A DNA stretch of 20,919 nt, from positions 1-20,919 of IMG/VR virus record IMGVR_UViG_3300030333_005218. The stretch is one strand, 5' to 3'. Shown here piece after piece: positions 4,383 through 18,868 of the stretch (the first letter of the stretch is position 1; the number at the start of each line of letters is the position of its first letter). Source of the stretch: a virus. The position numbers and the translations under genes are program-made. Under the pieces are notes generated by a model, which saw only the letters and a program-made list of their open reading frames with translations, was not told the DNA's origin and did not search any database.

Positions 4383-4385
4383 TTC

Positions 4386-4392
4386 TGTGTAT
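4386..4392 (+). promoter_or_regulatory. Candidate phage promoter motif TGTGTAT (copy 1)
   Basis: TGTGTAT preceded by TTC lies in the 59-nt gap between terminase and portal genes, 49 nt before the portal ATG. The same heptamer recurs in three of the four other gaps longer than 50 nt. It runs into an inverted repeat at 4391-4405. It does not match the sigma70 or T4 late consensus, so a promoter role is inference from position and recurrence. Confidence 0.45.
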
Positions 4393-4405
4393 TGTATATT
4401 ACAAT
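4391..4405. repeat. Inverted repeat ATTGTA-TAT-TACAAT
   Basis: A perfect 6-bp dyad with a 3-nt spacer overlaps the end of the candidate promoter motif upstream of the portal gene. It could be an operator-like half-site pair or a small 5' leader hairpin. Short AT-rich dyads also arise by chance, so confidence in function is low. Confidence 0.35.
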
Positions 4406-4441
4406 CCTATTACCAATACTATTGACTGAAAGGCAATCATA

Positions 4442-6559
4442 ATGAGCGATGACTTATACTTGACATGGGGAGATGATGGCGAAAGAGAACAAGCTTATAG
4501 TCAGTCTTCAGATAATATAAGTGCCTATGATGGCATACAAAAATCTTACGCTTATGATTACCGAACTTTTATAGATATCGAGTCTTCTCGATCTGTCAGA
4601 CCGAGTTTCTATAGGTCTGATTACGATGCGTTCCGTCCGGGAGAAGCCCTCCCCAAAAGACAGAAACGAATAATGAAGATGTGTATGCAAGCTTACGAAA
4701 AGGTTGGCATAGTTCGTAATGTCATTGACTTAATGGGAGACTTTGCCGGTCAGGGCCTTACACTTGTGCATCCGAATAAATCTATAGAAAGATTTTACAG
4801 GAAGTGGTTCGATCAAGTCAATGGAGCTGAAAGGTCAGAAAGATTTTTAAACTATCTATATAGATGCGGAAACGTAGTAGTCAAAAGACGAACAGCAAAG
4901 ATCAGCTCGAAAAGAGAACAGGAGTTAAAGAGAAGCACTGCAGCTCCAGATGTTAAGATTGATGATTTGGTTTTTTCTAAGAAAGAAGTGCCTTGGAAGT
5001 ATGATTTCTTAAACCCTCTAACGGTCTATGTCAAAAACAAGGATGACGCTTCTTTCACAGGAAAGTATGATTATGTATTGAGGGTCTCAAAAAACACAAT
5101 GAACTCTCTTAGTACCTATAAAGGTAGACTTGGAAATAGTGTTTCGCTTCCAACTGGTGTTTTGAATGGTCTTAATAAAGGCGAAAGAGACATTGTTCTA
5201 GACATGGACAAAGTAAGCATATACCATTATAAAAAAGACGACTGGAACTTCTGGTCCAATCCAATGATCTATGCTATTTTAGATGACATTATCATGCTAG
5301 AAAAGATGAAGTTAGCTGATTTAGCAGCTCTTGATGGAGCTATATCTAATGTTAGACTGTGGAGACTTGGGGATCTTGACAATAAAATTATTCCCACGAA
5401 GTCGGCAATTAATAAGCTTAGAGACATTCTTGCTAGTAATGTCGGTGGCGGTACAATGGACCTTGTGTGGGGTCCTGAAATTGACTTTAAAGAAAGCAAC
5501 TCTCAGGTCTTCAAGTTTTTAGGTGATCAGAAATATCAACCTGTACTGACTAGCATATATGCCGGTCTAGGGATTCCACCAACTCTTACTGGAGCTTCAG
5601 GCGCTGGCGGCTATAGCAATAACTATGTCAGTCTTAAAACACTTATAGAGAGATTAGAATATGGTAGAGAAATCTTGACCGAATTCTGGAAGCAAGAAAT
5701 AGAACTCGTCCAGAAAGCTATGGGCTTTAGATTTCCAGCACAAATTCACTTTGATTCTATTATTCTTTCAGACGAAGCAGCAGAAAAACAATTACTTATT
5801 CAGTTGGCCGACAGAGATATCATATCTCACGAAACTTTATTAGAAAGATTCCGTGAACTTCCAAGCATTGAAAGAATAAGAGTGAGAAGAGAAGGCAGAG
5901 AAAGAAATAACGATACAAACGCTCCAAAGAAAGCTGGTCCTTTCCACAATCCTCAACATAAAGAAGATGTTGCAAAGATAGCAATGACAAAAGATGTTCT
6001 TGATAACGAAGCATATCTAGAAAAAATTGGCCTACCTCCAGTAGAGGAAGAAGCGGTAGTTGAAGAAAGGCCAGCTCCGGAGCAGCAGCAAGAAGAAAAC
6101 TTTGAGCCCACACCAGAAAATCCTCAAGGTGGGAGACCAAAGAACGCTAGAGATGAACAGAAACGGAAGCAAAAAAGAGTACTGCCTAGAAGTGGAGAAG
6201 CATCTATAGACTTGAATAGTAGAACTTTATGGGCATATGAGGCCCAAAAAACAATCGCTGATCTGGTTACTCCTATGGCTTTAGATCACTTCGATAAAAA
6301 GAACGCTCGCAGCCTTACTAAATCTGAATTTGATCAGCTAGAGTACTTGAAGTTGTGCATACTTACTGGAACAAAACCATTCATGGAGATAACTCCAGAG
6401 GTAATAAAATCTATTGTAGATGCGAACACAAAACCCTCGGAAGCATTCACATCCTATGCCAATGAGCTGAAAGACAGCTTTACTAATTTACAAAATAGGA
6501 AGCCAACTATTGATGAAGTTAGATATATATACGCGTCCACATTCGCTACTCTATCCTAA
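4442..6559 (+). CDS. Portal protein
   Basis: The portal is the dodecameric ring at one capsid vertex through which DNA enters and to which the neck attaches. The 705-residue protein follows the terminase directly and has portal-type sequence: an N-terminal segment with VGIVRNVIDLMGDF near 88-102, a GNVVVKRR strand near 143-150, and the widely shared GIPPTLTG segment beginning at residue 377, followed by a helix with ERLEYGR. The C-terminal third is unusual: a Glu/Pro/Gln-rich linker (about 534-563) followed by a basic stretch (RPKNARDEQKRKQKR, about 565-580) and an extra helical domain to residue 705. GAAAGG at 4428-4433 is the ribosome binding site, 8 nt before the ATG. It probably heads its own transcript, given the upstream motif at 4386. 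Confidence 0.88.
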   Translation: MSDDLYLTWGDDGEREQAYSQSSDNISAYDGIQKSYAYDYRTFIDIESSRSVRPSFYRSDYDAFRPGEALPKRQKRIMKMCMQAYEKVGIVRNVIDLMGDFAGQGLTLVHPNKSIERFYRKWFDQVNGAERSERFLNYLYRCGNVVVKRRTAKISSKREQELKRSTAAPDVKIDDLVFSKKEVPWKYDFLNPLTVYVKNKDDASFTGKYDYVLRVSKNTMNSLSTYKGRLGNSVSLPTGVLNGLNKGERDIVLDMDKVSIYHYKKDDWNFWSNPMIYAILDDIIMLEKMKLADLAALDGAISNVRLWRLGDLDNKIIPTKSAINKLRDILASNVGGGTMDLVWGPEIDFKESNSQVFKFLGDQKYQPVLTSIYAGLGIPPTLTGASGAGGYSNNYVSLKTLIERLEYGREILTEFWKQEIELVQKAMGFRFPAQIHFDSIILSDEAAEKQLLIQLADRDIISHETLLERFRELPSIERIRVRREGRERNNDTNAPKKAGPFHNPQHKEDVAKIAMTKDVLDNEAYLEKIGLPPVEEEAVVEERPAPEQQQEENFEPTPENPQGGRPKNARDEQKRKQKRVLPRSGEASIDLNSRTLWAYEAQKTIADLVTPMALDHFDKKNARSLTKSEFDQLEYLKLCILTGTKPFMEITPEVIKSIVDANTKPSEAFTSYANELKDSFTNLQNRKPTIDEVRYIYASTFATLS

Positions 6560-6593
6560 CTTTTTAGCAAAAAACTATATAAAATTCTTTTTT

Positions 6594-6600
6594 TGTGTAT
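6594..6600 (+). promoter_or_regulatory. Candidate phage promoter motif TGTGTAT (copy 2)
   Basis: TGTGTAT directly follows a T-run (6588-6594) in the 81-nt gap after the portal gene, 40 nt before the ATG of the protease-scaffold gene. The T-rich lead-in and spacing match the copies at 9783 and 17695. Confidence 0.45.
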
Positions 6601-6617
6601 TATCCATTGTAGCCGAT

Positions 6618-6627
6618 ATTCTAGAAT
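6618..6627. repeat. 10-bp palindrome ATTCTAGAAT
   Basis: A perfect palindrome lies 17 nt after candidate promoter copy 2 and 13 nt before the protease-scaffold ATG. It might be an operator or leader element, but this is short and could be chance. Confidence 0.25.
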
Positions 6628-6640
6628 GGAATAAAAACAT

Positions 6641-8185
6641 ATGTCTATAAAAATATACGAACAAGAAATACAAGATGGTCTTGAAGAAGCGATTGCTTCC
6701 AATTCAACCATCGCTTATTGTTCTGAGATTTTAAATTTCACAGACACCATAAGTATTTCGGATTTAGGTGGAGACGAATCAAAAGCGAAAGCAGACAGTC
6801 TATTTGAAAGCGCCGCACAAAACAACGACCAAATAGATCTTTATTACTTGTCATCTGTTTTAGTTAGCAGTGGCTGGAATAAGAATGATGATGTATTTGA
6901 TTCGCAAGAAATGTGGAAGGCCCGTTCTACCCCAGAAGACAAGCAATTTAACTTTATGCACAATGAAAAAGATATCATTGGACATATAACTGGCAACTAT
7001 GTAGTTGACTTTGAAGGCACACGTCTTGATTCTCAAGCTGACTGGATCGAAGCGGGATCGCCAAAAGACTTTAATATTATAACAAATGCTGTGTTATACA
7101 CCTCGTGGAGTGATCCAGACTTAAGAGGTCGTATGGCTAAAATCGTACAGGAAATAGAAGAAGGAGACAAGTGGTTTGTAAGCATGGAATGTATGTTCCC
7201 AAACTTTGACTACGCTTTGCAAAATTCGCAAGGTGAAACTAAAGTTGTAAGAAGAGAAGAGGCTTCGGCATTTTTGACGAAACACCTTCGAGCTTATGGG
7301 GGAACTGGAAAGTATGAGGAGTACACAGTAGGTCGTTTATTAAGAAATATATCTTTCTCTGGCAAGGGCTTGGTTTCAAAACCTGCTAATCCTCGAAGCG
7401 TAATTTTAAGGAATGAGAGTAATCTTACTGAAACTGAAAGTAAATTAGTCACAATTTCATCACAGAAGGAGAATGAAATGTCTGATGTTTTACAGAAACA
7501 AGTTGACGAACTGAAGGTTGAATTATCTGAAGCTCGCGCAACTAATGAAACTATGAAACAGGAGATGGAGGAAAAGAAAGCTGAGGCTATGAAACTACAG
7601 CTCGAATCTTTTGAAGCCACTATCTCTGAAAAAGATGAAGCAATCGCTTCTCTTGAAACAAAATTTAACGAGACTTCCGCTAAAGTAAAAGAACTTGAAG
7701 AAGCTCTTGCTGCTGTTGAAGTAGCTAAAGAAGAAGCAGTCGCTCAGATTGAAGAAATCAAAAAGGCTGCAGCTTTGGAAAAAAGAACTTTGGCTCTTAC
7801 TGAAGCCGGTCTTGAAGGTGAAGAACTTGACGATGCTATCGCTAAGTTTGAGGGCCTCGATGATGAAACCTTCGATTTCGTTGTTGCCAAAATGGGCAAA
7901 AAATACGGCGAAAAAGAAGAAGAAGAAGATAAGAAAGAAGCTAAGGCTGACCCTAAAAAGAAGGGTGAGCTCGATAAAGCCGAAAAAAGGCGAGCATCTG
8001 AAGCATCAGAAGAAGAAATTGACGAAGCAGAAGCTTCCGAAGAAATTCTAGAAGAAGCTGAAGAAGTCGCTGATGTTGCTATGGCCGAAGCTATTGATGA
8101 GAGTGAAGAATCTGAAGATCTTCGTTCTACAGCTAGCGAATGGTTTGGTTCTTTCTTAAAATCAACTGCTAACCTTAACGATTAA
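6641..8185 (+). CDS. Prohead protease fused to scaffold protein
   Basis: The 514-residue product joins a prohead (assemblin/T4 gp21-like) serine protease to a scaffold. The protease part (about 60-250) has SSGWNKNDDVFD, NFMHNEKDIIGHI with probable catalytic H107, and KWFVSMECMF with probable nucleophile S181, the usual His-then-Ser order of this fold. From about residue 280 the sequence becomes a long Glu/Lys/Ala coiled coil, then a very acidic stretch (about 425-490), ending in a hydrophobic tail (SEWFGSFLKS) that may bind the capsid protein. The protease would digest the scaffold and trim capsid proteins during maturation (family knowledge). The full-length start has only a weak GGA as ribosome site, in contrast to the strong internal site before codon 280. 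Position before the capsid genes fits. Confidence 0.83.
   Translation: MSIKIYEQEIQDGLEEAIASNSTIAYCSEILNFTDTISISDLGGDESKAKADSLFESAAQNNDQIDLYYLSSVLVSSGWNKNDDVFDSQEMWKARSTPEDKQFNFMHNEKDIIGHITGNYVVDFEGTRLDSQADWIEAGSPKDFNIITNAVLYTSWSDPDLRGRMAKIVQEIEEGDKWFVSMECMFPNFDYALQNSQGETKVVRREEASAFLTKHLRAYGGTGKYEEYTVGRLLRNISFSGKGLVSKPANPRSVILRNESNLTETESKLVTISSQKENEMSDVLQKQVDELKVELSEARATNETMKQEMEEKKAEAMKLQLESFEATISEKDEAIASLETKFNETSAKVKELEEALAAVEVAKEEAVAQIEEIKKAAALEKRTLALTEAGLEGEELDDAIAKFEGLDDETFDFVVAKMGKKYGEKEEEEDKKEAKADPKKKGELDKAEKRRASEASEEEIDEAEASEEILEEAEEVADVAMAEAIDESEESEDLRSTASEWFGSFLKSTANLND
7466..7471 (+). promoter_or_regulatory. Internal Shine-Dalgarno before scaffold-only start
   Basis: AAGGAG lies 6 nt before an in-frame ATG (7478) inside the protease-scaffold gene, exactly where protease sequence ends and coiled coil begins. 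It is much stronger than the site at the full-length start (6641). Confidence 0.65.
7478..8185 (+). CDS. Scaffold protein from nested in-frame start
   Basis: This predicted 235-residue product begins at Met280 of the protease-scaffold gene (MSDVLQKQVDELK). It would contain only the coiled-coil, acidic and capsid-binding tail regions, so it is a free scaffold without protease. The evidence is the perfect AAGGAG at 6-nt spacing, the placement of the Met at the domain boundary, and the need for many more scaffold than protease copies in a prohead. Lambda C/Nu3 is the known example of this arrangement. The alternative is that AAGGAG only reflects the Lys-Glu codons of the QKENEM sequence. Confidence 0.6.
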   Translation: MSDVLQKQVDELKVELSEARATNETMKQEMEEKKAEAMKLQLESFEATISEKDEAIASLETKFNETSAKVKELEEALAAVEVAKEEAVAQIEEIKKAAALEKRTLALTEAGLEGEELDDAIAKFEGLDDETFDFVVAKMGKKYGEKEEEEDKKEAKADPKKKGELDKAEKRRASEASEEEIDEAEASEEILEEAEEVADVAMAEAIDESEESEDLRSTASEWFGSFLKSTANLND

Positions 8186-8192
8186 ATAATAG

Positions 8193-8208
8193 AGGAGAAT
8201 ATATAATG
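8193..8208 (+). promoter_or_regulatory. Strong ribosome binding leader, first copy
   Basis: The 16 nt AGGAGAATATATAATG, including the start codon of the decoration gene, recur identically at 8709-8724 before the major capsid gene. Strong sites on both genes fit their expected high copy number. Confidence 0.6.
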
Positions 8209-8697
8209 GCTCTTAAATCAGATAGAAATGAAGTAGAAACCGACATTAGCTTTTTCATGAATGAAGTAGCTACTAGAGGTGGAATTGCTTCTATCAGCAC
8301 TGTTGGTTCTGGTGCTGCTATGGATCAAGGCGGTGCCTTGGTTACTTATGCTGCACTCCCATCCGGAAAAATCCCTGTTGGGTTGCTGGTAAACGATATG
8401 GTTAATATTGACCTAACACGTCAACACATTAATCAACATAAGGACGAAGTACAGAAGGGTGGTAAGGTAACACTTCTCCGCAAGGGTTATGTTGTTACTA
8501 ATAACATCGAGGGAACTACTCCTACTGCTGGTGCCCCAGCTTATGTGGCTCACAGTGGAAATCTTTCCATCGCTGACTTGTCTAACGACGATACTGATGC
8601 TGACGGTTCAACTCGCGTTGTAGGAAGATTCCTTTCTACAGTCGATGAAGACGGTTATGCTAAGGTATATATTGACCTTCCAAATACTAACGTATAA
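8206..8697 (+). CDS. Probable capsid decoration/cement protein
   Basis: This 163-residue protein lies between the scaffold and the major capsid gene, where many phages encode the decoration (cement) protein that binds and stabilises the expanded capsid. It is Gly/Ala/Thr-rich and beta-type. The C-terminal half (GAPAYVAHSGNLS, then VVGRFLSTVDEDGYAKVYIDL) resembles the DUF2190-like cement fold, in which a small beta domain ends in an EDGxxxVxI strand. I saw no signal peptide, membrane segment or catalytic motif. The strong AGGAG at 8193-8197 and nearly the same leader as the capsid gene point to stoichiometric synthesis with the capsid protein. The role is inferred from position and pattern. 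Confidence 0.6.
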   Translation: MALKSDRNEVETDISFFMNEVATRGGIASISTVGSGAAMDQGGALVTYAALPSGKIPVGLLVNDMVNIDLTRQHINQHKDEVQKGGKVTLLRKGYVVTNNIEGTTPTAGAPAYVAHSGNLSIADLSNDDTDADGSTRVVGRFLSTVDEDGYAKVYIDLPNTNV

Positions 8698-8708
8698 ACC
8701 ACTCTTAA

Positions 8709-8724
8709 AGGAGAATATATAATG
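8709..8724 (+). promoter_or_regulatory. Strong ribosome binding leader, second copy
   Basis: Identical 16-nt copy of the leader at 8193-8208. AAAGGAG at 8707-8713 stands 8 nt before the ATG at 8722, which makes 8722 the preferred start over the in-frame ATG at 8728. Confidence 0.6.
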
Positions 8725-9726
8725 AATATGAAAAATCGTCCTTCAGATGAATTTATCGCATTGCTTAAGCAGTCCGGTAGTTCAGATAAAGCAGTGGCTA
8801 TTGAAGCTCAGCGTGAAATCGCTAAAGCTTTGGAATTGCCTTTGCGTAAGGGTGTTTTATTCGGAGATGTTGTAACTTCAATTTATGAAGCTATGCCTCT
8901 TGAGCCGGGTAGCACACCTGAGTTTCCTCTTGACCTATTAGCTCCCGGAACAGAAAGTGAGCACATTGCTTACACTAATCCCGGACACGGTCGTATTCCA
9001 GAACGTAGCGTCGAAGGCGACTACGTAATGGTTAACACCTACGGTATCACAAGCTCAATCGACTTCTTGTTGAAATATGCTCGTGAAGCCAACTGGGGTG
9101 TTGTCGCTCGTGCAATGCAGGTCCTTGAGTCCTCATTTGTTAAGAAAATCAACGATGACGGCTGGCACACTTTGCTCGCCGCTGCTGTTGATAGAAATAT
9201 CTTGGTTTATGATGCAGATGCAGCTGCTGGTCAGTTCACAAAGCGTCTTGTATCATTAATGAAGACTGTCATGCGACGAAACGGTGGTGGTAACAGTGTT
9301 ACTGCTCCGGGCCGCTTGTCTGATCTTTATTGTTCACCAGAAGCAATCGAAGATATCCGCAACTGGGGTGTCGATCAGCTTGACGAAGTTTCACGTCGTG
9401 AAATTTACGTTGCAGGCGATGACGCAGCTCCACTAGTTCGCATCTTCGGTGTTAACCTTCACGACCTCTTTGAGTTTGGTGACGGTCAAGAGTACCAATC
9501 CTACTTCACTAGTGACTTAGGTGGTTCTCTGCAGACTAGCGATGTAGAGCTCGTAATTGGTCTCGACCAAGGTAGCAATGACAGCTTCGTAATGCCTGTT
9601 AAGAAAGAAGTTGAAGTTTATGAAGACGAAGCTCTTCACAGACACCAACGTCAAGGGTACTACGGTTGGGCTGAAATTGGTTTTGGTGTTCTTGATAACA
9701 GAAGAGTTCTCGCTGGCTCATTCTAA
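8722..9726 (+). CDS. Major capsid protein
   Basis: This 334-residue protein should form the icosahedral shell. It follows the scaffold and decoration genes, has the strongest ribosome site of the cluster, and is followed at once by a terminator, all usual for the major capsid gene. The sequence fits an HK97-fold capsid protein: an N-terminal helical arm, a long central alpha-helical stretch (YAREANWGVVARAMQVLESS, about 116-135) and a C-terminal block with RQGYYGWAEIGFGVLDNRR, which I recall from capsid proteins of large phages. Arginine codons are mostly CGT or CGC, whereas neighbouring genes favour AGA, consistent with selection for high expression or a different origin. No long N-terminal delta domain is seen, in line with a separate scaffold. 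Confidence 0.85.
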   Translation: MNMKNRPSDEFIALLKQSGSSDKAVAIEAQREIAKALELPLRKGVLFGDVVTSIYEAMPLEPGSTPEFPLDLLAPGTESEHIAYTNPGHGRIPERSVEGDYVMVNTYGITSSIDFLLKYAREANWGVVARAMQVLESSFVKKINDDGWHTLLAAAVDRNILVYDADAAAGQFTKRLVSLMKTVMRRNGGGNSVTAPGRLSDLYCSPEAIEDIRNWGVDQLDEVSRREIYVAGDDAAPLVRIFGVNLHDLFEFGDGQEYQSYFTSDLGGSLQTSDVELVIGLDQGSNDSFVMPVKKEVEVYEDEALHRHQRQGYYGWAEIGFGVLDNRRVLAGSF

Positions 9727-9754
9727 TAGCTTATCTCAATACCATAAAAAAGGA

Positions 9755-9783
9755 CCGTCTCGTGCAAGCGAGGCGGTTTTTTT
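9755..9783 (+). terminator. Intrinsic terminator after the major capsid gene
   Basis: CCGTCTCG (9755-9762) pairs with CGAGGCGG (9769-9776) as an 8-bp stem with one G-U wobble and a 6-nt loop, followed by seven T (9777-9783). It lies 28 nt after the capsid stop codon, the classic place to end a highly expressed capsid transcript. Its last T is also the first base of the TGTGTAT motif. Confidence 0.85.
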
Positions 9784-9789
9784 GTGTAT
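9783..9789 (+). promoter_or_regulatory. Candidate phage promoter motif TGTGTAT (copy 3)
   Basis: TGTGTAT abuts the terminator T-run, 45 nt before the ATG at 9835. Placement directly after a terminator and ahead of a new gene block is the best positional support that this motif restarts transcription. Confidence 0.5.
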
Positions 9790-9801
9790 ATACAGGTATA
9801 T
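9788..9801. repeat. Inverted repeat ATATAC-AG-GTATAT
   Basis: A perfect 6-bp dyad with a 2-nt spacer starts within the last two bases of promoter motif copy 3, as the dyad at 4391 does for copy 1. It is a possible regulator site; AT-richness makes chance plausible. Confidence 0.3.
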
Positions 9802-9834
9802 GGAATAGGATCACATTTAATCTCGGGAGATTAT

Positions 9835-10461
9835 ATGGCTTTTCAACTTAAAGATAGAGTAAAAGAGACCACTACTACCACTGGTACTGGTACTATCAGC
9901 TTAGACGGAGCTGCTACTGGCTTTCAGTCTTTTGTTAGTTCTATAGGCGACGGTAACGTAACTTACTACGCTATAGAAGATGGTAATGGTGCTGCTTGGG
10001 AAGTCGGAGTCGGTACTATCACCGATGGTTCTCCAGATACGCTATCTAGAGATACTGTTTTGTCGAGCAGTAGTGGTGGCAGTAAGATATCTCTTTCTGC
10101 ACTTTCCCATACTGTGTACGCAACTTACCCAGCAGGTAAGGCTGTGTATATAGATACGTTAGGAAATCTTTCTCATAGGAAAAGCCCCTTCACAAATGCC
10201 GGGAGCGACAAAAGCCTTGATACAGATGATGAAATAGTTTTCTGTAATGCTAGTAGCGGCATCATGACAGTCACACTTTACGCTGCTACTGGTAATGGAG
10301 GCAGAAGAGTAGTAATAAAGAAAACAGATTCTACTGCATATAGAGTTAACATAATTAGAACGGGGAGCGAGACTATAGATGGTGAAACATCTATATCGCT
10401 TAAGTATTCAAATGAATCAGTAACATTAGTTTCAGATAACAGTAATTGGTTTATTATATAA
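9835..10461 (+). CDS. Virion fibre-like beta protein (208 aa)
   Basis: The start is the ATG at 9835 with GGGAGA just upstream (9825-9830); the longer frame from GTG 9784 begins inside the promoter motif and is unlikely. The N-terminus (KDRVKETTTTTGTGT, then GFQSF, YYAIEDGNGAAWEVGVGT and LSRDTVLSSS) is a conserved domain at the head of many phage tail-fibre or virion adhesin proteins. The C-terminal 48 residues (IKKTDSTAYRVNII to NWFII) form a beta module repeated at the end of the next protein. Composition is Ser/Thr/Gly-rich with no membrane or enzymatic motif. It opens a block of structural genes and probably contributes to a fibre, though whether on head, neck or tail is unknown. Confidence 0.68.
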   Translation: MAFQLKDRVKETTTTTGTGTISLDGAATGFQSFVSSIGDGNVTYYAIEDGNGAAWEVGVGTITDGSPDTLSRDTVLSSSSGGSKISLSALSHTVYATYPAGKAVYIDTLGNLSHRKSPFTNAGSDKSLDTDDEIVFCNASSGIMTVTLYAATGNGGRRVVIKKTDSTAYRVNIIRTGSETIDGETSISLKYSNESVTLVSDNSNWFII

Positions 10462-10476
10462 TTAAGGAGACATAAA

Positions 10477-12204
10477 ATGTCATATTCACCCTTTGCATTT
10501 GGTCTCACTAAAGGGGAGACCACGTCAAGCTCAGGACAGTTTGTATTATTAGACAATAATGGAGATTTTGAGTTTCAGGATAGCGACGTACTAAAGTTCG
10601 GTGATGGTGCCGATATGAGCGTGTACCATACTGGCTCTGCCGGGTATATTACTAACGCTACTGGTACTTTGAATATAGCTACTGAAACTAGCGGAATAGC
10701 AATATCCATAGGGCATACAACCTCAGAAGTTACGGTTAATGACAACTTAACCGTTACTGGAGACCTTACTGTTAATGGAACAACAACATCTGTCAATCAA
10801 ACGCAGATAGATGTTACTAACGCGTTTGTGTTTGAAGGTTCTACTGCAGATGCACATGAGACAACGCTAGCTATTGTAGATCCTACCGCAGATGCTACGA
10901 TCAATCTTCCAGCTATGGCAGCAGGCACATACTACCTTCCAGTATTAGCTGCCGCTAGCACTACTGCAATCAGCTCTACTCCAGCAGAACTTAATTTGCT
11001 GGATGGCTCAGTCGCAAATACTGTTGTAAATAGCAAGGCTGTTATCTATGGCTCTTCAGGTCAGGTTAAAGGTTCTAGCTTTATAGTTGCTGACGGAGGC
11101 AACATAGGTTCTGCCAGTGATACAGACGCTATGTCAATATCTTCTGGAGGAGAGGTTAGTTTTTCTGTTGGTTTTGACGTTCCTTCTGGAGCTCAAGGCG
11201 ACATCCTTTATCATGATGGCAATAAGTTCGTTAGACTTGGCGCTGGTACTGATGGGCACTTCCTAAAAACACAGGGTACTGGTGCTAATCCGACATGGGC
11301 AGCTGCCAGTGGCGGAGGTGGAGCTAGCGCTCTTAATGACCTCTCAGATGTCACATATTCTAGCGGTGATTTAACTATCTCTAGTCTAGACACTATTATT
11401 GCTGGAGCTCTTACTATTGACTCAAGCGGAGACATTGCCCTTAGTGCTGATGGTGGTAATGTAACAATGGACGATGGGTCAACTACTATCTTTGACTTTG
11501 ATGTGGATGGAACTACGCTTACTATCCACGACGATCAAGATACTGGTGATAAAGTAGTAATGACAATGGCTCAGCATGGCGCATTTTCTATTGTCACTAC
11601 TGATGACGATGCTGCCGCTGCTAACATCACTATTACAGCTGACGGTACTTTTGAAGCAGATGGTACTACCATAACTCTAGACTCTGGCGGAGATATCGTC
11701 CTTGACGCCGCTGGTGATGAGGTTGTATTTAAGGATGGCAGCACTAATATTGGTCATGTGAGTATGGCCAGTGACAACCTTACTATCAAGTCTTTAGTTA
11801 ACGATAAAGACATGATCTTTCAAGGTGTCGATGACAGTTCTGCAATTACAGCTCTGACTTTAGATATGAGCGAGGCTGGTGCAGCGACATTTAACAGTTC
11901 AGTCAAAGGTGATGTCTTTATTGACTCAGTAGAGATTATAACAAATGACGGCGTTACTGTAAGCAAAGGTTTCACTGGAGTTACTACTGGCGGATCGAAT
12001 AGAGTCGCTACCTTACCTGCAGCTGTTGCAGGCAATGTTGGAGCTAAGTACACTATCAAAAAACTAGACAGTGGCGCTGGAGCCGTGGAAGTAACTAGAG
12101 CAGGGGATGATACGATTGATGGAGGGACTACCGTTGTTCTTTACCATCAGCATGAGAGTGTTACTCTTATTGTCGGCGCTGCTGACACTTGGTATATTAT
12201 ATAA
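10477..12204 (+). CDS. Large repeat-rich fibre-like virion protein (575 aa)
   Basis: This is a 575-residue low-complexity beta protein, rich in Ser, Thr, Gly, Asp and Ala, of a type common in aquatic phage fibres. Recognisable segments are LTVTGDLTVNGTTTSV (about 91-106), TPAELNLLDGS (168-178) and two related repeats at about 311-350 and 398-437, each of the form GDI-x-L-x-A-x-G followed by KDGST or DDGST and ending NLTI or TLTI. The C-terminal module IKKLDSGAGAVEVT to TWYII (527-575) is paralogous to the end of the preceding protein. AAGGAG at 10464-10469 is the ribosome site. It is probably a trimeric fibre or appendage shaft with a knob-like end (inference). No intramolecular chaperone motif or enzymatic motif was seen. 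Confidence 0.68.
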   Translation: MSYSPFAFGLTKGETTSSSGQFVLLDNNGDFEFQDSDVLKFGDGADMSVYHTGSAGYITNATGTLNIATETSGIAISIGHTTSEVTVNDNLTVTGDLTVNGTTTSVNQTQIDVTNAFVFEGSTADAHETTLAIVDPTADATINLPAMAAGTYYLPVLAAASTTAISSTPAELNLLDGSVANTVVNSKAVIYGSSGQVKGSSFIVADGGNIGSASDTDAMSISSGGEVSFSVGFDVPSGAQGDILYHDGNKFVRLGAGTDGHFLKTQGTGANPTWAAASGGGGASALNDLSDVTYSSGDLTISSLDTIIAGALTIDSSGDIALSADGGNVTMDDGSTTIFDFDVDGTTLTIHDDQDTGDKVVMTMAQHGAFSIVTTDDDAAAANITITADGTFEADGTTITLDSGGDIVLDAAGDEVVFKDGSTNIGHVSMASDNLTIKSLVNDKDMIFQGVDDSSAITALTLDMSEAGAATFNSSVKGDVFIDSVEIITNDGVTVSKGFTGVTTGGSNRVATLPAAVAGNVGAKYTIKKLDSGAGAVEVTRAGDDTIDGGTTVVLYHQHESVTLIVGAADTWYII

Positions 12205-12222
12205 TATAAGGAACTTTATTAT

Positions 12223-13458
12223 ATGGCTCATTCAATAACCTTACAGAACGTATCGGACACAGCTATCATTGATAATGATATTCTGGGGCAAATTTGTTTT
12301 GCTGCACCGAATGAATCTAGCGGCACTGATTCTATATTGATTTCAGCTTCTGTGTTTGCTAGATCAGAGGGGACTTTTGCTGCCGATAACAATGCTACAG
12401 AATTAGTCTTTGTGACAGGGGCTAGCGAATCTGCTGCTCCCGCAGCGACTAATGGCGATATGACGCTGAGTTCTGCTGGGTTGTTGACTGTTGCCGACGA
12501 TATAGTTATCAAGAGTGCAGGAACTATAGGAGGGGCTAATGATGTAGATCTACTTACTCTAGGTAATGGTGTACTCACTGTTGCTGGAGAAATAGAAGGT
12601 ACATCTTTAGATATTTCTGGTGATGGAGATATAGATGGAGCTCTGGAGGTGGGCAGTATAGAGTTAGGACACGCAAGTGACACAACTATAGCAAGAAGTA
12701 GTGCTGGAGTAATAACAGTAGAGGGAACAGAGGTTATTTTAGCTGGTGCGGTCACTGGGATAACCTCTCTCCTTGCTACTGATATTGTAATTGGTGAAGA
12801 CGCTGATACAAAGATTGACTTTGAGACAGCTAATGAAATTCACTTTGATACAGGGGGGACTGAGAGAGTAAAAATAGACTATAATGGGTTATATGTCGAC
12901 AAAATAAGAAGACTTTCAGATAGCGGCTCAACAACAAAAATACTTCTTAATGATGAGGTGTTGAAACTATACGCCGGTCATTCATCAAACAATATCTGTA
13001 CGATAGATTCTACCGGATTAACTATTGAGAATGGCAGCTTGGAGACGGCCACTATTGATTATACTGATGGCGATAATGCAATGACTATCGCTGATGGTGG
13101 AGCTGTTACTTTTGCTAAAGCAGCCAAGCCTGCCGCACCAGCTGCTGCGAGCGGCACTAGCGGTATTGTGGTTCTAGACTGTGACACCACAAATCATTTT
13201 ACCATAACTACCAGCGGGAATATTACGGGCTGGAACTTTACAAACGCTTCAGTAGGGCAAAGAATTGTAGTAAGAGTTACCAACGGCGCAAGTCATACTG
13301 TAGCTTTTTCAGCTAGCGGCGACGGTGATGTTGTATACTTCCCCGGAGGAACTGAACCAACCCTCACCACGAGTGGTGGAATAGACGTGTATGGATTTTT
13401 ATGTGTCGCAGCAGACACTTTTGATGGATTTATTCTAGGACAAGATATTAAGGCATAA
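12223..13458 (+). CDS. Fibre-like virion protein (411 aa)
   Basis: This 411-residue beta-rich protein resembles the preceding one in composition. It has the segments LATDIVIGEDADTKIDFE and NEIHFDTGGTERVKID (about 185-223), a pattern that recurs in fibre proteins of marine phages. Its C-terminal domain (from about 305: SGIVVLDCDTTNHFTI, then GQRIVVRVTNGASHTVAF, ending GFILGQDIKA) is a different tip module from the one shared by its two upstream neighbours. That fits a fibre made of interchangeable tips. AAGGAA at 12208-12213 precedes the start; only 2 nt separate its stop from the next gene. Which receptor or partner it binds cannot be read from the sequence. Confidence 0.65.
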   Translation: MAHSITLQNVSDTAIIDNDILGQICFAAPNESSGTDSILISASVFARSEGTFAADNNATELVFVTGASESAAPAATNGDMTLSSAGLLTVADDIVIKSAGTIGGANDVDLLTLGNGVLTVAGEIEGTSLDISGDGDIDGALEVGSIELGHASDTTIARSSAGVITVEGTEVILAGAVTGITSLLATDIVIGEDADTKIDFETANEIHFDTGGTERVKIDYNGLYVDKIRRLSDSGSTTKILLNDEVLKLYAGHSSNNICTIDSTGLTIENGSLETATIDYTDGDNAMTIADGGAVTFAKAAKPAAPAAASGTSGIVVLDCDTTNHFTITTSGNITGWNFTNASVGQRIVVRVTNGASHTVAFSASGDGDVVYFPGGTEPTLTTSGGIDVYGFLCVAADTFDGFILGQDIKA

Positions 13459-13460
13459 TA

Positions 13461-13994
13461 ATGACACAGTACGCTAGACCTGATGCAGATATATCAGATG
13501 GAGACTGGTTAAATCAGTCTGACAGTAATACTAATCTATACGCAAGCATAGATGAGTCTTCTGCTAGTGACAGTGACTATATAAAAGCTACAGACGAAGG
13601 TTATGGTAGCGGTAGTGACATTGTCTGTATTATTGGCCTAAGTGACATAAATACACCCGATGGAGATGCTGATCACAAAATAAAATATAGAGCCAGTGAC
13701 GATAGTGGATCGGGCGCTATGTCACTTAAAGTAGAGTTGCTTGAAGGAAGTACGGTTAGGAAGACGGACACTAATAGCAGTTTAACGTCTAGCCTTGCAA
13801 CCTACACCATAAACCTCACAACAGGTGAGGCTGGCAATATATCTGATTACACAGATTTGAGATTAAGGTTTACTGCGAATGACAGCTCGGGGTCTGGCAC
13901 CACTTGTACGGTTTCATGGGCTGAATTTCAAGCCCCCGACGAAGCGTCAGGCATTGTGACTAGTCCAGCGTTTTTATTGTTTGTTGACTTTTAG
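13461..13994 (+). CDS. Beta-sandwich structural protein (177 aa)
   Basis: This 177-residue protein is Ser/Asp/Thr-rich. The opening RPDADISDGDWLN and the sequence SSASDSDYIKATD followed by hydrophobic and charged alternating strands suggest a jelly-roll or lectin-like beta sandwich, of a kind often found in phage fibre clusters. No catalytic motif was found. It begins 2 nt after the stop of the preceding gene, with AAGG at 13450-13453, so it is probably translated as part of the same block. It may be a fibre tip or accessory adhesin (inference). Confidence 0.6.
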   Translation: MTQYARPDADISDGDWLNQSDSNTNLYASIDESSASDSDYIKATDEGYGSGSDIVCIIGLSDINTPDGDADHKIKYRASDDSGSGAMSLKVELLEGSTVRKTDTNSSLTSSLATYTINLTTGEAGNISDYTDLRLRFTANDSSGSGTTCTVSWAEFQAPDEASGIVTSPAFLLFVDF

Positions 13995-14003
13995 GAGACT
14001 GCC

Positions 14004-14258
14004 ATGTTTGGGTTTTCATCTATAGGTGCATTTCCTTTTAGTGATGTCAGTCCTCCGGGAACGAGAACCGTAGTAGAAATACTAGAAACGGAGGATTTTA
14101 TTGTGTATATCAATACGGATGCAGAATTTAATAGTAATATTACTAGATCATCACTGAGGGATGTTTTGGTAAATACTGCCTTCGCTAGTGATATTTCCAT
14201 AACCAGAACTAGTGAAAAAGATATTAGTATAGAAAGATTTAGAGAATTTGAGAGGTAA
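14004..14258 (+). CDS. Small protein of unknown function (84 aa)
   Basis: This 84-residue protein is not recognised. An AGGAG ribosome site overlapping the previous stop (13993-13997) and 2-nt spacing to the next gene support it as real. The N-terminus (MFGFSSIGAFPFSD) is Gly/Phe/Ser-rich, while the rest is polar with repeated short D-I-x-I or N-I-x-R strands. Its place between adhesin-like genes suggests a small virion or fibre accessory protein. The frame also contains one chance-level TGTGTAT at 14102. Confidence 0.55.
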   Translation: MFGFSSIGAFPFSDVSPPGTRTVVEILETEDFIVYINTDAEFNSNITRSSLRDVLVNTAFASDISITRTSEKDISIERFREFER

Positions 14259-14260
14259 TT

Positions 14261-14572
14261 ATGGCAGCTAATGAGATACGCGTAGGGGACATTGGAACAA
14301 CTTTCCAGCTAACCTTCAAAGACGACGGATCTGTTGTTGACATCAGTTCCGCTAACTCGATAATATTTTATCTGCAGGGACCTGACGACGCAACCCTCAC
14401 AAAGTCTGCCACACTTGTTAGTGGTGGAACCGACGGAAAAGCTAAGTACAGTACTGTTTCAGGAGATTTGGGTTCTGCTGGAACTTGGAGAATACAAGGC
14501 AAGGTTGTTTTCTCCACAACCGAATACAGCAGTGATATACATACCTTTGAGGTTCACAAGAACCTTAGTTAA
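14261..14572 (+). CDS. BppU-like N-terminal domain protein (103 aa)
   Basis: The 103 residues match the pattern of the BppU N-terminal (upper baseplate/receptor-binding protein) immunoglobulin-like domain: IGTTFQLTFKDDGSVVDISS, then SIIFYLQGPD, then GKAKYSTVSGDLGSAGTWRI and a final strand FEVHKNL. In lactococcal phages this domain attaches receptor-binding proteins to the baseplate. Here it is a single stand-alone domain, so it may be an adaptor for one of the upstream fibre proteins (inference). GAGAGG lies just upstream and overlaps the stop of the preceding gene. Confidence 0.62.
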   Translation: MAANEIRVGDIGTTFQLTFKDDGSVVDISSANSIIFYLQGPDDATLTKSATLVSGGTDGKAKYSTVSGDLGSAGTWRIQGKVVFSTTEYSSDIHTFEVHKNLS

Positions 14573-14589
14573 TAATAAAGGAGAGCGTC

Positions 14590-15099
14590 ATGGCTTGGAC
14601 AACAGATTTAGTTCTATTTGTTAGAACCTTAATTGGAGATCTTGATTCATCCAAATACACAGATGCTAGATTAGAACAGATAATATCTGTCGCCGCCTAC
14701 AAGGTGAATGACGAGGCAGATTTTAATTATACATACACTATAGATATCGCAACTAAAGAGATAAGTCCAGATCCAGTAGACAATAAAGATACAGACTTCA
14801 CGGTGCTTACAGCCTATCAAGCATCTTGCATAATTTTAGGAAGCGAAGTGAAAACTGAAGCTGCTAATTCCCTCTCTCTAAGAGATGGTCCATCAGCTAT
14901 CGACTTAAGGGGAGTTGCTACTACACTTAACACTCTGTACAATGATCTATGCAAGAAATACGAAGAGCTCATGCAGGTATACAAAGCCACCAATAGCCTT
15001 CACGGTCAGGCGATCCTTGGTCCTTACAGTCCGGGTAGCGCTATTGTTAATAGACAATTCCAATACGGACGTAGTCGCTCAGGGACTATGTTCGATTAA
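14590..15099 (+). CDS. Probable head-tail connector (neck adaptor) protein
   Basis: This 169-residue, mostly alpha-helical protein has the layout of phage head-tail adaptors (gp6/gp15-like): an N-terminal helix with VRTLIGDLDSSKYTDARLEQII and VAAYKVNDEADF, and further helices around TAYQASCIILGSEV and LNTLYNDLCKKYEELMQVYK. Such proteins form a ring beneath the portal. The C-terminal tail is Gly/Ser/Arg-rich. AAAGGAG at 14577-14583 is its ribosome site. It is the first gene of the neck-like group after the fibre block. The assignment rests on pattern and position. Confidence 0.6.
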   Translation: MAWTTDLVLFVRTLIGDLDSSKYTDARLEQIISVAAYKVNDEADFNYTYTIDIATKEISPDPVDNKDTDFTVLTAYQASCIILGSEVKTEAANSLSLRDGPSAIDLRGVATTLNTLYNDLCKKYEELMQVYKATNSLHGQAILGPYSPGSAIVNRQFQYGRSRSGTMFD

Positions 15100-15118
15100 T
15101 TAATAAAGGAGAGATTAA

Positions 15119-15559
15119 ATGACTACAGCAAAAATAAAAAGCGGAAGCGGCTTCAACGAAAGAGGAGGAGTTGTTTTCACTATTGGTCCCGGAGTTTTCG
15201 ATCAAGGAGTAATGAGCACAGCCATTAACAGAACAGCACTTCCAGAAGATCAGATGAGATACGGCATTACCGAATACGCTGATATTTCTGCAGGAGCCAC
15301 AACACAGTCTCTTCGCGCAGCCATACCGGGTAGACAAATTGAGGTTTTGAGTTATGTGTTTGTTGTTGATGCAGCATCCAGTGTGACATTCAAATCCAAT
15401 ACAACCGCTATTTCTGGGGCTATGGCCTGTGCAGCAAATGGGGGAGCATCAGCTAATGGCGAAGGTGACGGACTGATGATTACCGCCGTAGGAGAAGCAC
15501 TACAGGTTACTAATTCTGCTGGAAATATAGCTGGACATATTACTTATAGGATTGTATAA
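15119..15559 (+). CDS. Small beta-type structural protein (146 aa)
   Basis: The 146 residues contain SLRAAIPGRQIEVLSYVFVVDAASSVTFKS (written here from about 62 to 91), then AISGAMACAANGG and a C-terminal VGEALQVTNSAGNIAGHITY. I recall this pattern as a widespread small beta-barrel protein of phage virions, with no settled function. No enzyme motif is present. The ribosome site is AAAGGAG before ATG 15119, and the stop overlaps the next start in TAATG, so it is coupled to the zinc-ribbon gene. A neck, decoration or fibre-associated role is possible. Confidence 0.55.
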   Translation: MTTAKIKSGSGFNERGGVVFTIGPGVFDQGVMSTAINRTALPEDQMRYGITEYADISAGATTQSLRAAIPGRQIEVLSYVFVVDAASSVTFKSNTTAISGAMACAANGGASANGEGDGLMITAVGEALQVTNSAGNIAGHITYRIV

Positions 15560-16071
15560 TGGCCATCGTAATACCAACAGGGGTATTCAATGTTTACAAT
15601 GAGGCTGTTACACTATTTGAACGAGTTGTTACATTAGTTTACCCAGAGAAAAAAGAGCAGTGTCCTAACTGTTATTTGGATACAATGGGCACTCGCACCA
15701 GATCTGTCAGCGTTTACAGGTCTGGCGGTCCATATCCATTCAGCAGAGGTATGCCCTGCCCGCAGTGTGACGGGAAGGGTTATAAGGCTATTGAAGCCGA
15801 AGAGGATCTTAATGTTAGAATATATTGGGAACCTAAGCAGTGGAAAGATATTGGAGCTGCTATCAATCTTCCAGAAGGCGCCATTCAAATTATCTCTAAA
15901 ATGACGGACCTTCCCAAGCTGGACAAAGCTAAGTATCTAATACCTAAAACTTATGGAAATATAAGCAATTATCATACTATGAGATTTACCAGAGCTGGAG
16001 ATGCCTATCCGCAAGGATTTAAGCAAAACCCTGAAAAATATGCAGTTACATTCTGGACAAGGAATACATAA
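15559..16071 (+). CDS. Zinc-ribbon neck-region protein (170 aa)
   Basis: The 170 residues carry two CxxC pairs, CPNC at 35-38 and CPQC at 67-70. The second is followed by DGKGY, which makes it look like half of a DnaJ-type zinc-finger repeat; together the pairs should bind one zinc. The rest is mixed alpha/beta with WEPKQWKDIGAAINLPEG near 95-112. The gene is joined by TAATG overlaps to both neighbours, so it is made with the connector proteins. A head-closure or tail-joining role is inferred from position; a zinc-binding assembly factor is equally possible. Confidence 0.6.
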   Translation: MAIVIPTGVFNVYNEAVTLFERVVTLVYPEKKEQCPNCYLDTMGTRTRSVSVYRSGGPYPFSRGMPCPQCDGKGYKAIEAEEDLNVRIYWEPKQWKDIGAAINLPEGAIQIISKMTDLPKLDKAKYLIPKTYGNISNYHTMRFTRAGDAYPQGFKQNPEKYAVTFWTRNT

Positions 16072-16715
16072 TGGCTAAGAAATTAGGGCTGAAGATAATA
16101 GAGAGCAACGCTCAGATTGAAGCTATCTTGCTTAAGAAGTTAGCAGATATGGCGGATGCCCACTTTTCCTCTGCTTATAAAAAACTATTCCCTCCCCTGA
16201 GAAGAATGATTAGGGATGCTATTATCTCTTGTCCGGAGATGAAGTCTGTTTCTTCTGGTATCTTGAAGCTTGACTTTGGTATAGCTGATGACCCAGCCCC
16301 TGCTATAGCAGATATGATAGCTAACTCATTGCAGTTTAATTATTCCAGAGTGAGGCTTCGGGGTAAAAGCTTATCTGGAGGCTTAACTATAACATTACAA
16401 CCTACAGACTACACTGCCCTTAGAACGTCATCTGTTGGAATAACAGAGACTGAAGACGGGGACCTACTGCCTTGGCTAGACTGGCTGCTGACTCTAGGTG
16501 ATTCTATTATTATAGTAAACTTTGGTGTGCAGTATGGTCCATATGGTAGAACCGGAGGAGCGAGAATGGTTCCTACTAGCAAGGGTCCATCTGTCAGACC
16601 TTTCCAAGTAAATCCTAACTACTCTGGAAACGAAGCTGATAACTTTATAACTAGAGCAATCGCAGCCCAAGAGGGCCCGATTAAAACTTTAATCATGAAC
16701 ATTTTAAGAGGTTAG
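16071..16715 (+). CDS. Probable neck or tail-completion protein (214 aa)
   Basis: The protein has 214 residues. An N-terminal helical part (about 1-60, with KKLADMADAHF and RRMIRDAI) is followed by a beta-rich part with LPWLDWLLTLGDSIII near 133-148 and a Gly/Arg loop YGPYGRTGGARM. I associate this pattern with neck or tail-completion proteins encoded between the head adaptor and the tube in large phages, but I cannot name a family. It begins in TAATG with the zinc-ribbon gene and ends 4 nt before the next gene, which fits a translationally coupled neck set. Confidence 0.52.
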   Translation: MAKKLGLKIIESNAQIEAILLKKLADMADAHFSSAYKKLFPPLRRMIRDAIISCPEMKSVSSGILKLDFGIADDPAPAIADMIANSLQFNYSRVRLRGKSLSGGLTITLQPTDYTALRTSSVGITETEDGDLLPWLDWLLTLGDSIIIVNFGVQYGPYGRTGGARMVPTSKGPSVRPFQVNPNYSGNEADNFITRAIAAQEGPIKTLIMNILRG

Positions 16716-16719
16716 TGAC

Positions 16720-17676
16720 ATGCCAGAAGCATATAAATCTTTAAGAGGTTTTGCTAACTCACAAGATGCAACCCTTTCAAATATATTGTTGGAAAATTTC
16801 ATAACTTTTTATGACTGGGGACTTGTGGACAAGGGAGACTTCTATAATATAGATATTCCCGAATCTGGTTTGTATGGTGGTAATAAGCATAAGCTTAGAC
16901 CTGTTCAAGATCCCAACTATAACGATGGTCAGGTCTGGGAGGGCTACAGAGGTAATTGGGTTTGGGAAACTGGAGTCGCTAACGTAGAACAACCCATAAG
17001 AATTTCAGGAGTCTTTGTCGAAAACACGTTCAGAGCAACGGGCAACGTACAGGCTCCATATCATATAAATTACCCAGAAGGCAGGGTTATATTTGACACT
17101 GCTATATCTACCACAAGTACCGTGCAGTTAGAGTATGCACATAAAAGAGTTAATGTAATTCCTGCAGAGGGTGTACCTTGGTTTAGACAAATACAGCAGA
17201 GATCTTTTAGAGTAGATGACTCTACGTTCACTCAGTTTGGGTCTGGAAATTGGGCACAGTTAGGCCAAACAAGAGTACAGCTTCCAGCTATTGCTGTGGA
17301 TGTTATATCATCAAAATCATTCGACGGTTTCCAGCTGGGAGGTGGTCAGAATGTAAACTCCGACATATTATTCTATGTGATCGCTGAAAACCATTGGGAA
17401 TGTAATAATTTGATAGACCAAATAGGCTTTCAAAACGATAGAACAATATGGCTATTTGACACAAATGAGGTAGCTATTTCAGGAGTCTATCCATTTAATT
17501 ATAGAGGTGAGGTAAACGCAAACGCCTTACCTAGTGGTTTATATCCACAATTAGTGGACAATCATCGGTACAGAAGATGCTTTATCAATAATACCAGAGC
17601 GGACGGCGTTACACAGCTTTCCCCGGATCTTTACATAGGAACCGTCAGATGTTCCACAGAAGTTAAAGCAATATAA
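16720..17676 (+). CDS. Virion structural protein upstream of tail tube (318 aa)
   Basis: This 318-residue protein is not assigned to a family. It is Tyr/Trp/Asn-rich and appears mostly beta. Notable segments are NILLENFITFYDWGL near 21-35, VFVENTFRATG, APYHINYPEGRVIFD near 113-127 and a Gly/Gln loop FQLGGGQNVNSD near 204-215. An AAGAGG ribosome site overlaps the end of the previous gene. Position between neck and tube suggests a neck or tail-terminator component or a neck appendage (inference). It is the last gene before the fourth promoter-like motif. Confidence 0.5.
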   Translation: MPEAYKSLRGFANSQDATLSNILLENFITFYDWGLVDKGDFYNIDIPESGLYGGNKHKLRPVQDPNYNDGQVWEGYRGNWVWETGVANVEQPIRISGVFVENTFRATGNVQAPYHINYPEGRVIFDTAISTTSTVQLEYAHKRVNVIPAEGVPWFRQIQQRSFRVDDSTFTQFGSGNWAQLGQTRVQLPAIAVDVISSKSFDGFQLGGGQNVNSDILFYVIAENHWECNNLIDQIGFQNDRTIWLFDTNEVAISGVYPFNYRGEVNANALPSGLYPQLVDNHRYRRCFINNTRADGVTQLSPDLYIGTVRCSTEVKAI

Positions 17677-17694
17677 GCCCTTTTCTGAAAATTT

Positions 17695-17701
17695 TGTGTA
17701 T
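17695..17701 (+). promoter_or_regulatory. Candidate phage promoter motif TGTGTAT (copy 4)
   Basis: ATTTTGTGTATATA in the 90-nt gap before the tail tube gene repeats the T-rich TGTGTAT element of the other gaps; it ends 65 nt before the ATG. The extended match with copy 3 is TTTTGTGTATATA. Confidence 0.5.
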
Positions 17702-17734
17702 ATAAAAATACCAAGCCAGAGGTAAAAGATAGTT

Positions 17735-17766: not shown

Positions 17767-18783
17767 ATGGCTAATAATAGAATTTTCTATGCTTGCCAAG
17801 CGGTCGCCATCTGCAAGATGGGGCATACCCCAACTGGTGGATCGAGCGCTACTTGTAAGTTTATGAAAGGGATACAGTCTGTTGGTATTACAACAAACTT
17901 TACTCTTGACCAAGCTTACGAAATGGGTCAGATTCAGATCTATCAAAACTCCGAAGAGATTGCAGACGTTGAAGTTACGTTAGAAAAGGTTATTGATGGC
18001 GAGCCATTGATCTACCCATCAGCTGCTGGAGCAGTTGCTTCTACTAACCTCGTATCTGCAGGTAATAACAGATGTGACGTTTATCTTGCAGTTTATGCAG
18101 ACTCGGTATCACAAGTTGCTGACGCAACTCCAGTACAAGTTTGCATGTGCTCAGGTATGTACGTTAGCTCCGTGAGTTATACATTCCCAGTGGATGGTAA
18201 CGCTACAGAATCTGTTACTCTCGTCGGTAATGATAAATTCTGGTCAGGTAGAGCAGACACGGTAGCAAATCCGGCTACGTCGTTTGGAGACCCAGACACG
18301 GGACTTAGCGGTTCTGATACACCAGCTTCTGGTCTCGTAAGAAGAACTAATGTTGACGTTGCTGGCTCAACACTTCCAACGGAAGTTATTAGTCAATCAA
18401 CATCGGCTACTTCGAGACACATTGCTAGTATCAGTGTGAGTGCTGACTTTGGTCGTGATAATATTCTTGAGTTGGGTAGATTTGGGCCTTACTTCAGATA
18501 CGCAACTTACCCATTTGAAGTTACATCAGAATTTGAAGTAACTGCAACTAGTGGTGACTTGGTTAACGTTTCTGGATCACATCCGAACCTTTCTAACCAT
18601 AATATCATCATTAAAGACAGTGCAGGAACTGTTTTAGACTTAGGTAGTCAAAACAAGCTGTCCTCAGTTTCTTACTCCGGTGGTGATACTGGTGGTGGAA
18701 ACGCTACTATTACTTATTCCTATTCTACTTTCAATGACTTGAAGGTACATGGTGGTAAAGATAGTAACGGCTACTATAGCTAG
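17767..18783 (+). CDS. Probable major tail tube protein
   Basis: The protein has 338 residues. The segment IQSVGITTNFTLDQAYEMGQ at 36-55, continuing through IQIYQNSEEIADVEVTLEKV to DGEPLIY (83), matches the N-terminal beta domain I associate with phage tail tube proteins, in which a loop and strand stack ring upon ring. A later ASISVSADFGRDNILELGRFGPY segment (near 220) looks like a second tube-like element, and the end is Gly/Ser/Thr-rich, perhaps a small surface domain. Strong AAAAGGAG before the ATG, its own promoter-like motif and a hairpin after the stop all fit a product needed in many copies. Four cysteines fall in the first 30 to 130 residues. Whether a sheath surrounds the tube cannot be told. 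Confidence 0.6.
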   Translation: MANNRIFYACQAVAICKMGHTPTGGSSATCKFMKGIQSVGITTNFTLDQAYEMGQIQIYQNSEEIADVEVTLEKVIDGEPLIYPSAAGAVASTNLVSAGNNRCDVYLAVYADSVSQVADATPVQVCMCSGMYVSSVSYTFPVDGNATESVTLVGNDKFWSGRADTVANPATSFGDPDTGLSGSDTPASGLVRRTNVDVAGSTLPTEVISQSTSATSRHIASISVSADFGRDNILELGRFGPYFRYATYPFEVTSEFEVTATSGDLVNVSGSHPNLSNHNIIIKDSAGTVLDLGSQNKLSSVSYSGGDTGGGNATITYSYSTFNDLKVHGGKDSNGYYS

Positions 18784-18793
18784 TAGTTTTGCG

Positions 18794-18843
18794 CGTTAGT
18801 CAATTCTAATATATATTATATTTGGAAATCGGATTGGCAAGCG
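18794..18843 (+). other. Long imperfect hairpin after the tail tube gene
   Basis: Bases 18794-18806 pair with 18831-18843 as a 13-position stem with one A-A mismatch and three G-U pairs. The apical part contains the palindrome TAATATATATTA (18807-18818). Only TTTT follows, so it is a weak terminator or a transcript-stabilising or attenuating structure between the tube and downstream genes. It occupies most of an 85-nt gap that lacks the TGTGTAT motif. Confidence 0.4.
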
Positions 18844-18868
18844 TTTTAGGGATTTTAGGAAGGTATGA

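Follow-up and report, generated by a model that had tools for sequence, protein, structure and literature searches.

A T-rich TGTGTAT box as a predicted late promoter, and a conserved candidate sigma factor, in an uncultured marine phage lineage

The DNA analysed here (the window) is an entire IMG/VR record of 20.9 kb, a genome fragment of an uncultured marine phage in which the string TTTTGTGTAT very probably marks the starts of virus-building genes. We are highly confident that the T-rich TGTGTATA element is a late promoter made up of one element, a long -10 box lacking a -35 partner, that would be read by the host RNA polymerase in combination with a small phage sigma factor, designated sigL. 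The interpretation as a late promoter was supported by the first rank of the box among 8-mers, its conservation in orthologous gaps, its bias toward the late strand, the conservation of the sigma gene and the lack of a phage RNA polymerase. Most likely, the small sigma redirects the host RNA polymerase to the boxes, although this recognition has not been demonstrated. All the evidence is comparative, and neither transcript ends nor sigma binding nor the host has been shown.

The search of 50,697 phage records gave no match to the portal-position gene, the capsid or sigL of this marine clade, and the terminase had matches of only approximately 26% (Microcystis phage MaeS and Bacillus phages), indicating a lineage without an isolate in that collection. 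Phage genes were also sought in bacterial genomes for identification of the host, and none was found. The relatives (loci L005-L160) were recruited with the terminase and the major head protein, and many of their contigs are longer than the window, reaching 145 kb. The 160 fetched loci were the basis for the comparison of orthologous gaps, which were cut between gene ends located by tblastn. The related records are fragments with start codons taken from a simple in-house gene finder, and the ortholog weighting used below removes their relatedness only in part.

The window genes from the terminase to the 338-aa gene lie on the plus strand. The terminase large subunit (2382-4382; phrog_2, 1.5e-22) is followed by a 705-aa gene (4442-6559), which had no PHROG or Pfam match and is called portal by position only, a 514-aa open reading frame (6641-8185), the major head protein (8722-9726; phrog_2522, 4e-5), a 208-aa frame whose start was chosen with the in-house gene finder (9835-10461), and a 338-aa gene (17767-18783), the orthologues of which in related genomes also have the box on their 5' side. 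The region 5' of the terminase (1-2382) carries genes for a GDP-mannose dehydratase, an HNH endonuclease, an ERCC4 nuclease and a ClpP-like protease.

The initial annotation had placed coding-strand copies of TGTGTAT at 4386, 6594, 9783 and 17695, within four of the five long intergenic gaps, and all four positions were verified. Late box 1 (TGTGTATT, 4386-4393) lies between the terminase and the portal-position gene, late box 2 (TTTTTTTGTGTATT, 6594-6601) precedes the 514-aa gene, late box 3 (TTTTGTGTATATA, 9783-9790) adjoins the terminator of the major capsid gene and stands before the 208-aa gene, and late box 4 (TTTTGTGTATATA, 17695-17702) precedes the 338-aa gene, all on the plus strand. 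The distance from the first T to the start codon is 56, 47, 52 and 72 nt, respectively (starts at 4442, 6641, 9835 and 17767). The extension of three copies to TTTTGTGTAT was likewise found, at 6591, 9780 and 17692, and the latter two extend further to TTTTGTGTATATA. The earlier count of just two additional plus-strand copies fell short by one, as a copy at 4680 had been missed besides those at 10143 and 14102; the minus strand has two (14655 and 19498), and every one of these extra copies is intragenic. The nine copies on both strands compare with 2.98 expected, a number reached in 0 of 100 shuffles. Together, the five gaps measuring 59 nt or more amount to only 423 nt, in which the dinucleotide background predicts approximately 0.03 copies (Poisson P of at least four, approximately 3e-8). 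The motif is real and beyond chance. The fifth long gap (18784-18868) contained no box in the window, nor did the three orthologous gaps of relatives; an A/T-rich stretch (TAATATATATTATATT) was seen there.

The T-rich TGTGTAT was retained in most of the 55 distinct gaps between the terminase and the portal-position gene and of the 65 gaps between the latter and the next gene, while the flanking sequence had otherwise diverged. The exceptions were near variants (TTGTGTAA, TTGCGTAT), showing that the box is not always perfect. In the capsid-next and 20-21 gaps, the box was retained in all those found. The core columns of the aligned boxes had near-maximum information, with T-rich sequence on the 5' side and A/T on the 3' side. 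Since the core itself served to locate the sites, independent evidence comes solely from the flanks and from retention in gap after gap. These flanks revealed neither a -35 partner at constant spacing nor a TATAAT consensus following the box; a weak A bias around -25 was all that was seen. The T4 late box TATAAATA was not matched either, in line with the earlier statement that the box is neither the T4 late box nor a sigma70 pair. Promoter-like hits of the host sigma70 type numbered 58 in the window against 48.7 expected (sd 6.1), and none was at a box. Nothing relevant to the box was found in the literature.

A motif search across the intergenic regions of relatives had been proposed as a check in the initial annotation, and in the long relatives no 8-mer was more strongly over-represented upstream of genes than the motif. 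In the de novo ranking, TGTGTATA came first (77 upstream regions, 3.4 expected) and TTGTGTAT second (69 and 2.8), both ahead of the Shine-Dalgarno sequence. In 12 related records, TTGTGTAT had 65 occurrences in sense-oriented upstream gaps (6.5 per 10 kb) and five in other gaps (0.5 per 10 kb), and coding DNA had 11 sense (0.13 per 10 kb) and 26 antisense copies (0.30 per 10 kb). The density in sense upstream gaps was accordingly 12-fold that in other gaps and 50-fold that in sense coding DNA. Of the 150 late-strand genes with a gap, 61 were preceded by the string, compared with five of 225 on the other strand. The box sites fell into 29 families of downstream genes, indicating that they are not a single ancestral site copied by descent.

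The strongest column outside the box was a purine at +15 counted from the first T, with a pyrimidine at +14. This YR step was present in 62% of the ortholog-weighted sites, when compared with a column mean of 23% (sd 9%), and the enrichment was unchanged when sites near a start codon were left out to drop the short leaders. All four copies in the window have the step (4400-4401, 6608-6609, 9797-9798 and 17709-17710). It is also carried by the intragenic plus-strand copies (4680, 10143 and 14102) and so cannot tell individual sites apart. The Shine-Dalgarno sequence of gap g7, which has the shortest leaders, started at +15 or +16 in 55 of the 65 examples. This places it inside the predicted transcript, and it behaves as if barred from the untranscribed part. 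The YR step stands at a fixed distance as an initiator would, a prediction from sequence only, as transcript ends have not been mapped.

The reader of the motif had been envisaged as a phage-encoded factor or polymerase, and the search of the genomes for a sigma-like factor, another of the proposed checks, identified a conserved one. Sigma70_r2 (PF04542) was detected above the cut-off in 11 of 12 related records, and the sigL gene was located approximately 3.5-4.5 kb 5' of the terminase in 27 of 27 eligible loci, a locus being eligible if 5.2 kb or more was available upstream. The window record ends before sigL. In its closest longer relative (L006), with a terminase 97% identical to that of the window, sigL occupies 1843-2352 and the terminase begins at 5708; by this layout, sigL would fall approximately 1 kb to the left of the first base of the window. 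The protein has approximately 166-190 aa in the marine clade, and only sigma-70 region 2 is recognisable (PF04542, 5.7e-8); region 4, responsible for -35 recognition, gave no Pfam hit. The region 2 helices of the AlphaFold model superposed on the N-terminal domain of SigE with a TM-score of approximately 0.73 (target-normalised) and an rmsd of approximately 2, although the Foldseek E-values were weak. The C-terminal part is unassigned; its helices were modelled confidently, with uncertain domain packing (pTM 0.47). In sequence and predicted fold, region 2 of sigL conforms to the sigma-70 family. Many relatives, not all, have a box 190-380 nt 5' of sigL; in L006, none was found within 450 nt upstream. 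The assignment of sigL to the box rests on co-inheritance and position, and binding and specificity have not been shown. Two further sigma-like types were observed with patchy distribution (G001:83107, G003:85485 and G006:18550; G001:116480, G002:95183 and G004:92015), perhaps serving middle genes.

In contrast to the factor, a polymerase of the phage's own found no support. T7-type RNA polymerase (PF00940) was detected in none of 10 related records with a positive T7 control, and a phage beta' subunit (PF04997) in none of 12, with 14 of 14 controls positive; highly diverged phage subunits are not excluded. The minus-strand early genes of two relatives (G001 and G002) had promoters resembling TTGACA-N17-TATAAT, so that promoter use appears to differ between the strands.

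The box and the sigma also occur together in a sister clade from freshwater and sediment that includes jumbo phages, with contigs up to 244 kb. The clade is 33% identical in the 338-aa gene and has the same gene order as the marine clade. A scan with its capsid yielded at least 600 stretches; the capsid gave a 20% match to Bacillus phage G, and the sigma had no match in the phage collection. The box of this clade was defined from orthologous gaps, as the de novo search in single records was too weak, and reads A/G-GTGTAT at places equivalent to the marine boxes. GTGTAT was found in 46 of 51 gaps 5' of the portal-position gene and in 44 of 54 and 16 of 17 post-capsid gaps, often directly after a terminator, while control positions had it in 0 of 55 and 0 of 46. 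A box-like string 5' of the gene after the portal (33 of 57) lies within portal codons and may reflect the portal protein sequence; it was not counted. A homologous sigma (E approximately 1e-27) was present in 31 of 31 eligible loci. It retains the region 2 core NRLxNxKRDNYxR and has, directly after region 2, a four-cysteine insert (L280:4381-5010 and others), possibly a zinc-binding module. The box and the sigma thus differ jointly from their marine counterparts, indicating that they travel together across a large divergence with a common GTGTAT core. In L280 (G016), TTGACA-17-TATTAT was noticed approximately 200 nt 5' of the sigma gene, before the preceding small ORF, with the spacing counted by eye; it suggests that the sigma is first expressed by the host sigma70. 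Epimerase, HNH and nuclease genes similar to those of the window were also seen 5' of the terminase in this clade.

The possibility that the T-runs are mere U-tracts of terminators and the motif a composition bias was considered in light of the copy at 9783, which does follow a real intrinsic terminator after the major capsid gene (stem at 9749-9782, plus strand; -20.6 kcal/mol, z -5.5). The T-run preceding this copy doubles as the U-tract, which runs into late box 3, and the order of terminator and box was seen again in relatives. The copies at 4386, 6594 and 17695, however, have no significant hairpin upstream. The background derived from gaps predicts approximately three copies where 69-77 were seen, and orthologous gaps retain the TGTGTA core. 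Conservation, 8-mer ranking and the missing hairpins refute this explanation for three of the four copies, and we give it practically no credence. Scarcely more credible is an RNA-level element, a processing site or translation enhancer in the leaders of late mRNAs. The box does lie in the 5' regions of late genes and nearly always in sense, but its distance to orthologous starts can be as short as 25 or as long as nearly 400 nt, and in loci with inserted genes it stays by the end of the capsid gene rather than by the start codon. The YR initiator and the Shine-Dalgarno limit at +15 fit a transcription start, and the joint change of box and sigma in the sister clade also speaks against an RNA element.

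A late promoter with a different reader, either host sigma70 with a phage activator or another phage sigma paralogue, deserves more attention and is nevertheless improbable. Sigma paralogues of types 2 and 3 do occur as one or two more sigma-like genes in some genomes, and some copies carry TGTGTATAAT, which is similar to an extended -10. The paralogues are patchy, however, and in G005, a record of 95 kb, sigL is the sole Sigma70_r2 hit. Reading by host sigma70 is opposed by the lack of a TATAAT consensus after the box and of a clear -35, with ordinary sigma70 promoters on the other strand.

Under the preferred reading of the box as a promoter recognised by sigL, the host RNA polymerase with its own sigma70 would early in infection transcribe the minus-strand genes from the TTGACA-N17-TATAAT promoters. 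Once made, sigL would join the host core enzyme and melt the DNA at the box, and the RNA would begin at the purine 15 nt after the first T, predicted at 4401, 6609, 9798 and 17710 for late boxes 1 to 4. The late genes would form separate units, one headed by the portal-position gene, one running from the 514-aa gene to the major capsid, one beginning with the post-capsid genes and one headed by the 338-aa gene, and the box 5' of sigL in many relatives would provide positive feedback. We further propose, tentatively and with somewhat less than even confidence, that the sigma-promoter pair has been vertically inherited in a large tailed-phage lineage without an isolate in the searched collection (marine members of approximately 100-145 kb; freshwater and sediment members up to 244 kb). 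The first base of the box, which is T in marine members and G or A in those of the sister clade, would differ as the sigma differs, including the four-cysteine insert, and the sigma would represent a new class among phage sigmas, paired with an orthogonal late promoter of its own. For common marine and freshwater phages without an isolate in that collection, these results offer a transcription programme, with early sigma70, a late phage sigma and starts predicted to the base. The box serves to find late operons in metagenomic contigs, sigL and the box together are a candidate for orthogonal expression, and the pair of clades offers a natural test of joint change in a phage sigma and its promoter.

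The box and the sigma family appear to be new, with a mode that by analogy would be like that of phiEco32 gp36 or the Kayvirus late promoters. The phiEco32 gp36 reads tAATGTAtA and starts 6-8 bp downstream without region 4 (PMC8948821). The likeness comprises a phage sigma without recognisable region 4, a single-element middle/late promoter and the shared TGTATA, whereas the box here is TTTTGTGTATA with the T-rich consensus TGTGTATA. The best PHROG of sigL was the gp36 family (phrog_1740) with weak values of 1.4e-6 and 1.4e-5, compared with 1.9e-45 for gp36 itself; the sister-clade sigma was also weak (6.8e-5). The profile similarity between sigL and gp36 was low (hhalign E 0.043, probability 1%), and window proteins had no match to phiEco32 in the phage collection. 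Because of the weak PHROG match and the different box, sigL was not filed as a gp36 family member. The late promoters of Kayvirus (Twort-like) phages, TGTTATATTA, are also long -10 boxes without a -35 (PMC7698491), and share the start a few bases downstream, predicted for the present box, the clustering at structural genes and the phage sigma (PMC7698491), but the box is another and the phages are unrelated. In phage 7-11, a sigma distantly related to phiEco32 gp36 likewise directs late genes, from bipartite promoters GTAAtg-16-aCTA (PMC8948821) unlike the single element here. The T4 late promoters (TATAAATA, gp55) resemble the present system in a single -10-like box 5' of structural genes and a small phage sigma. 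The gp55 system was rejected, as the box differs and gp55 is phrog_234, to which sigL does not belong, with only a marginal profile match over 45 residues.

Two minor observations were made in relatives. The early minus-strand promoters of L161, L167 and L168 (G001) and L180, L185 and L186 (G002) carry TG[C/A]CGATA within the spacer between -35 and -10, possibly an operator or activator site. A tmRNA with the tag VEENFALAA was present in two relatives (L167:5449-5789 and L185:10501-10842).
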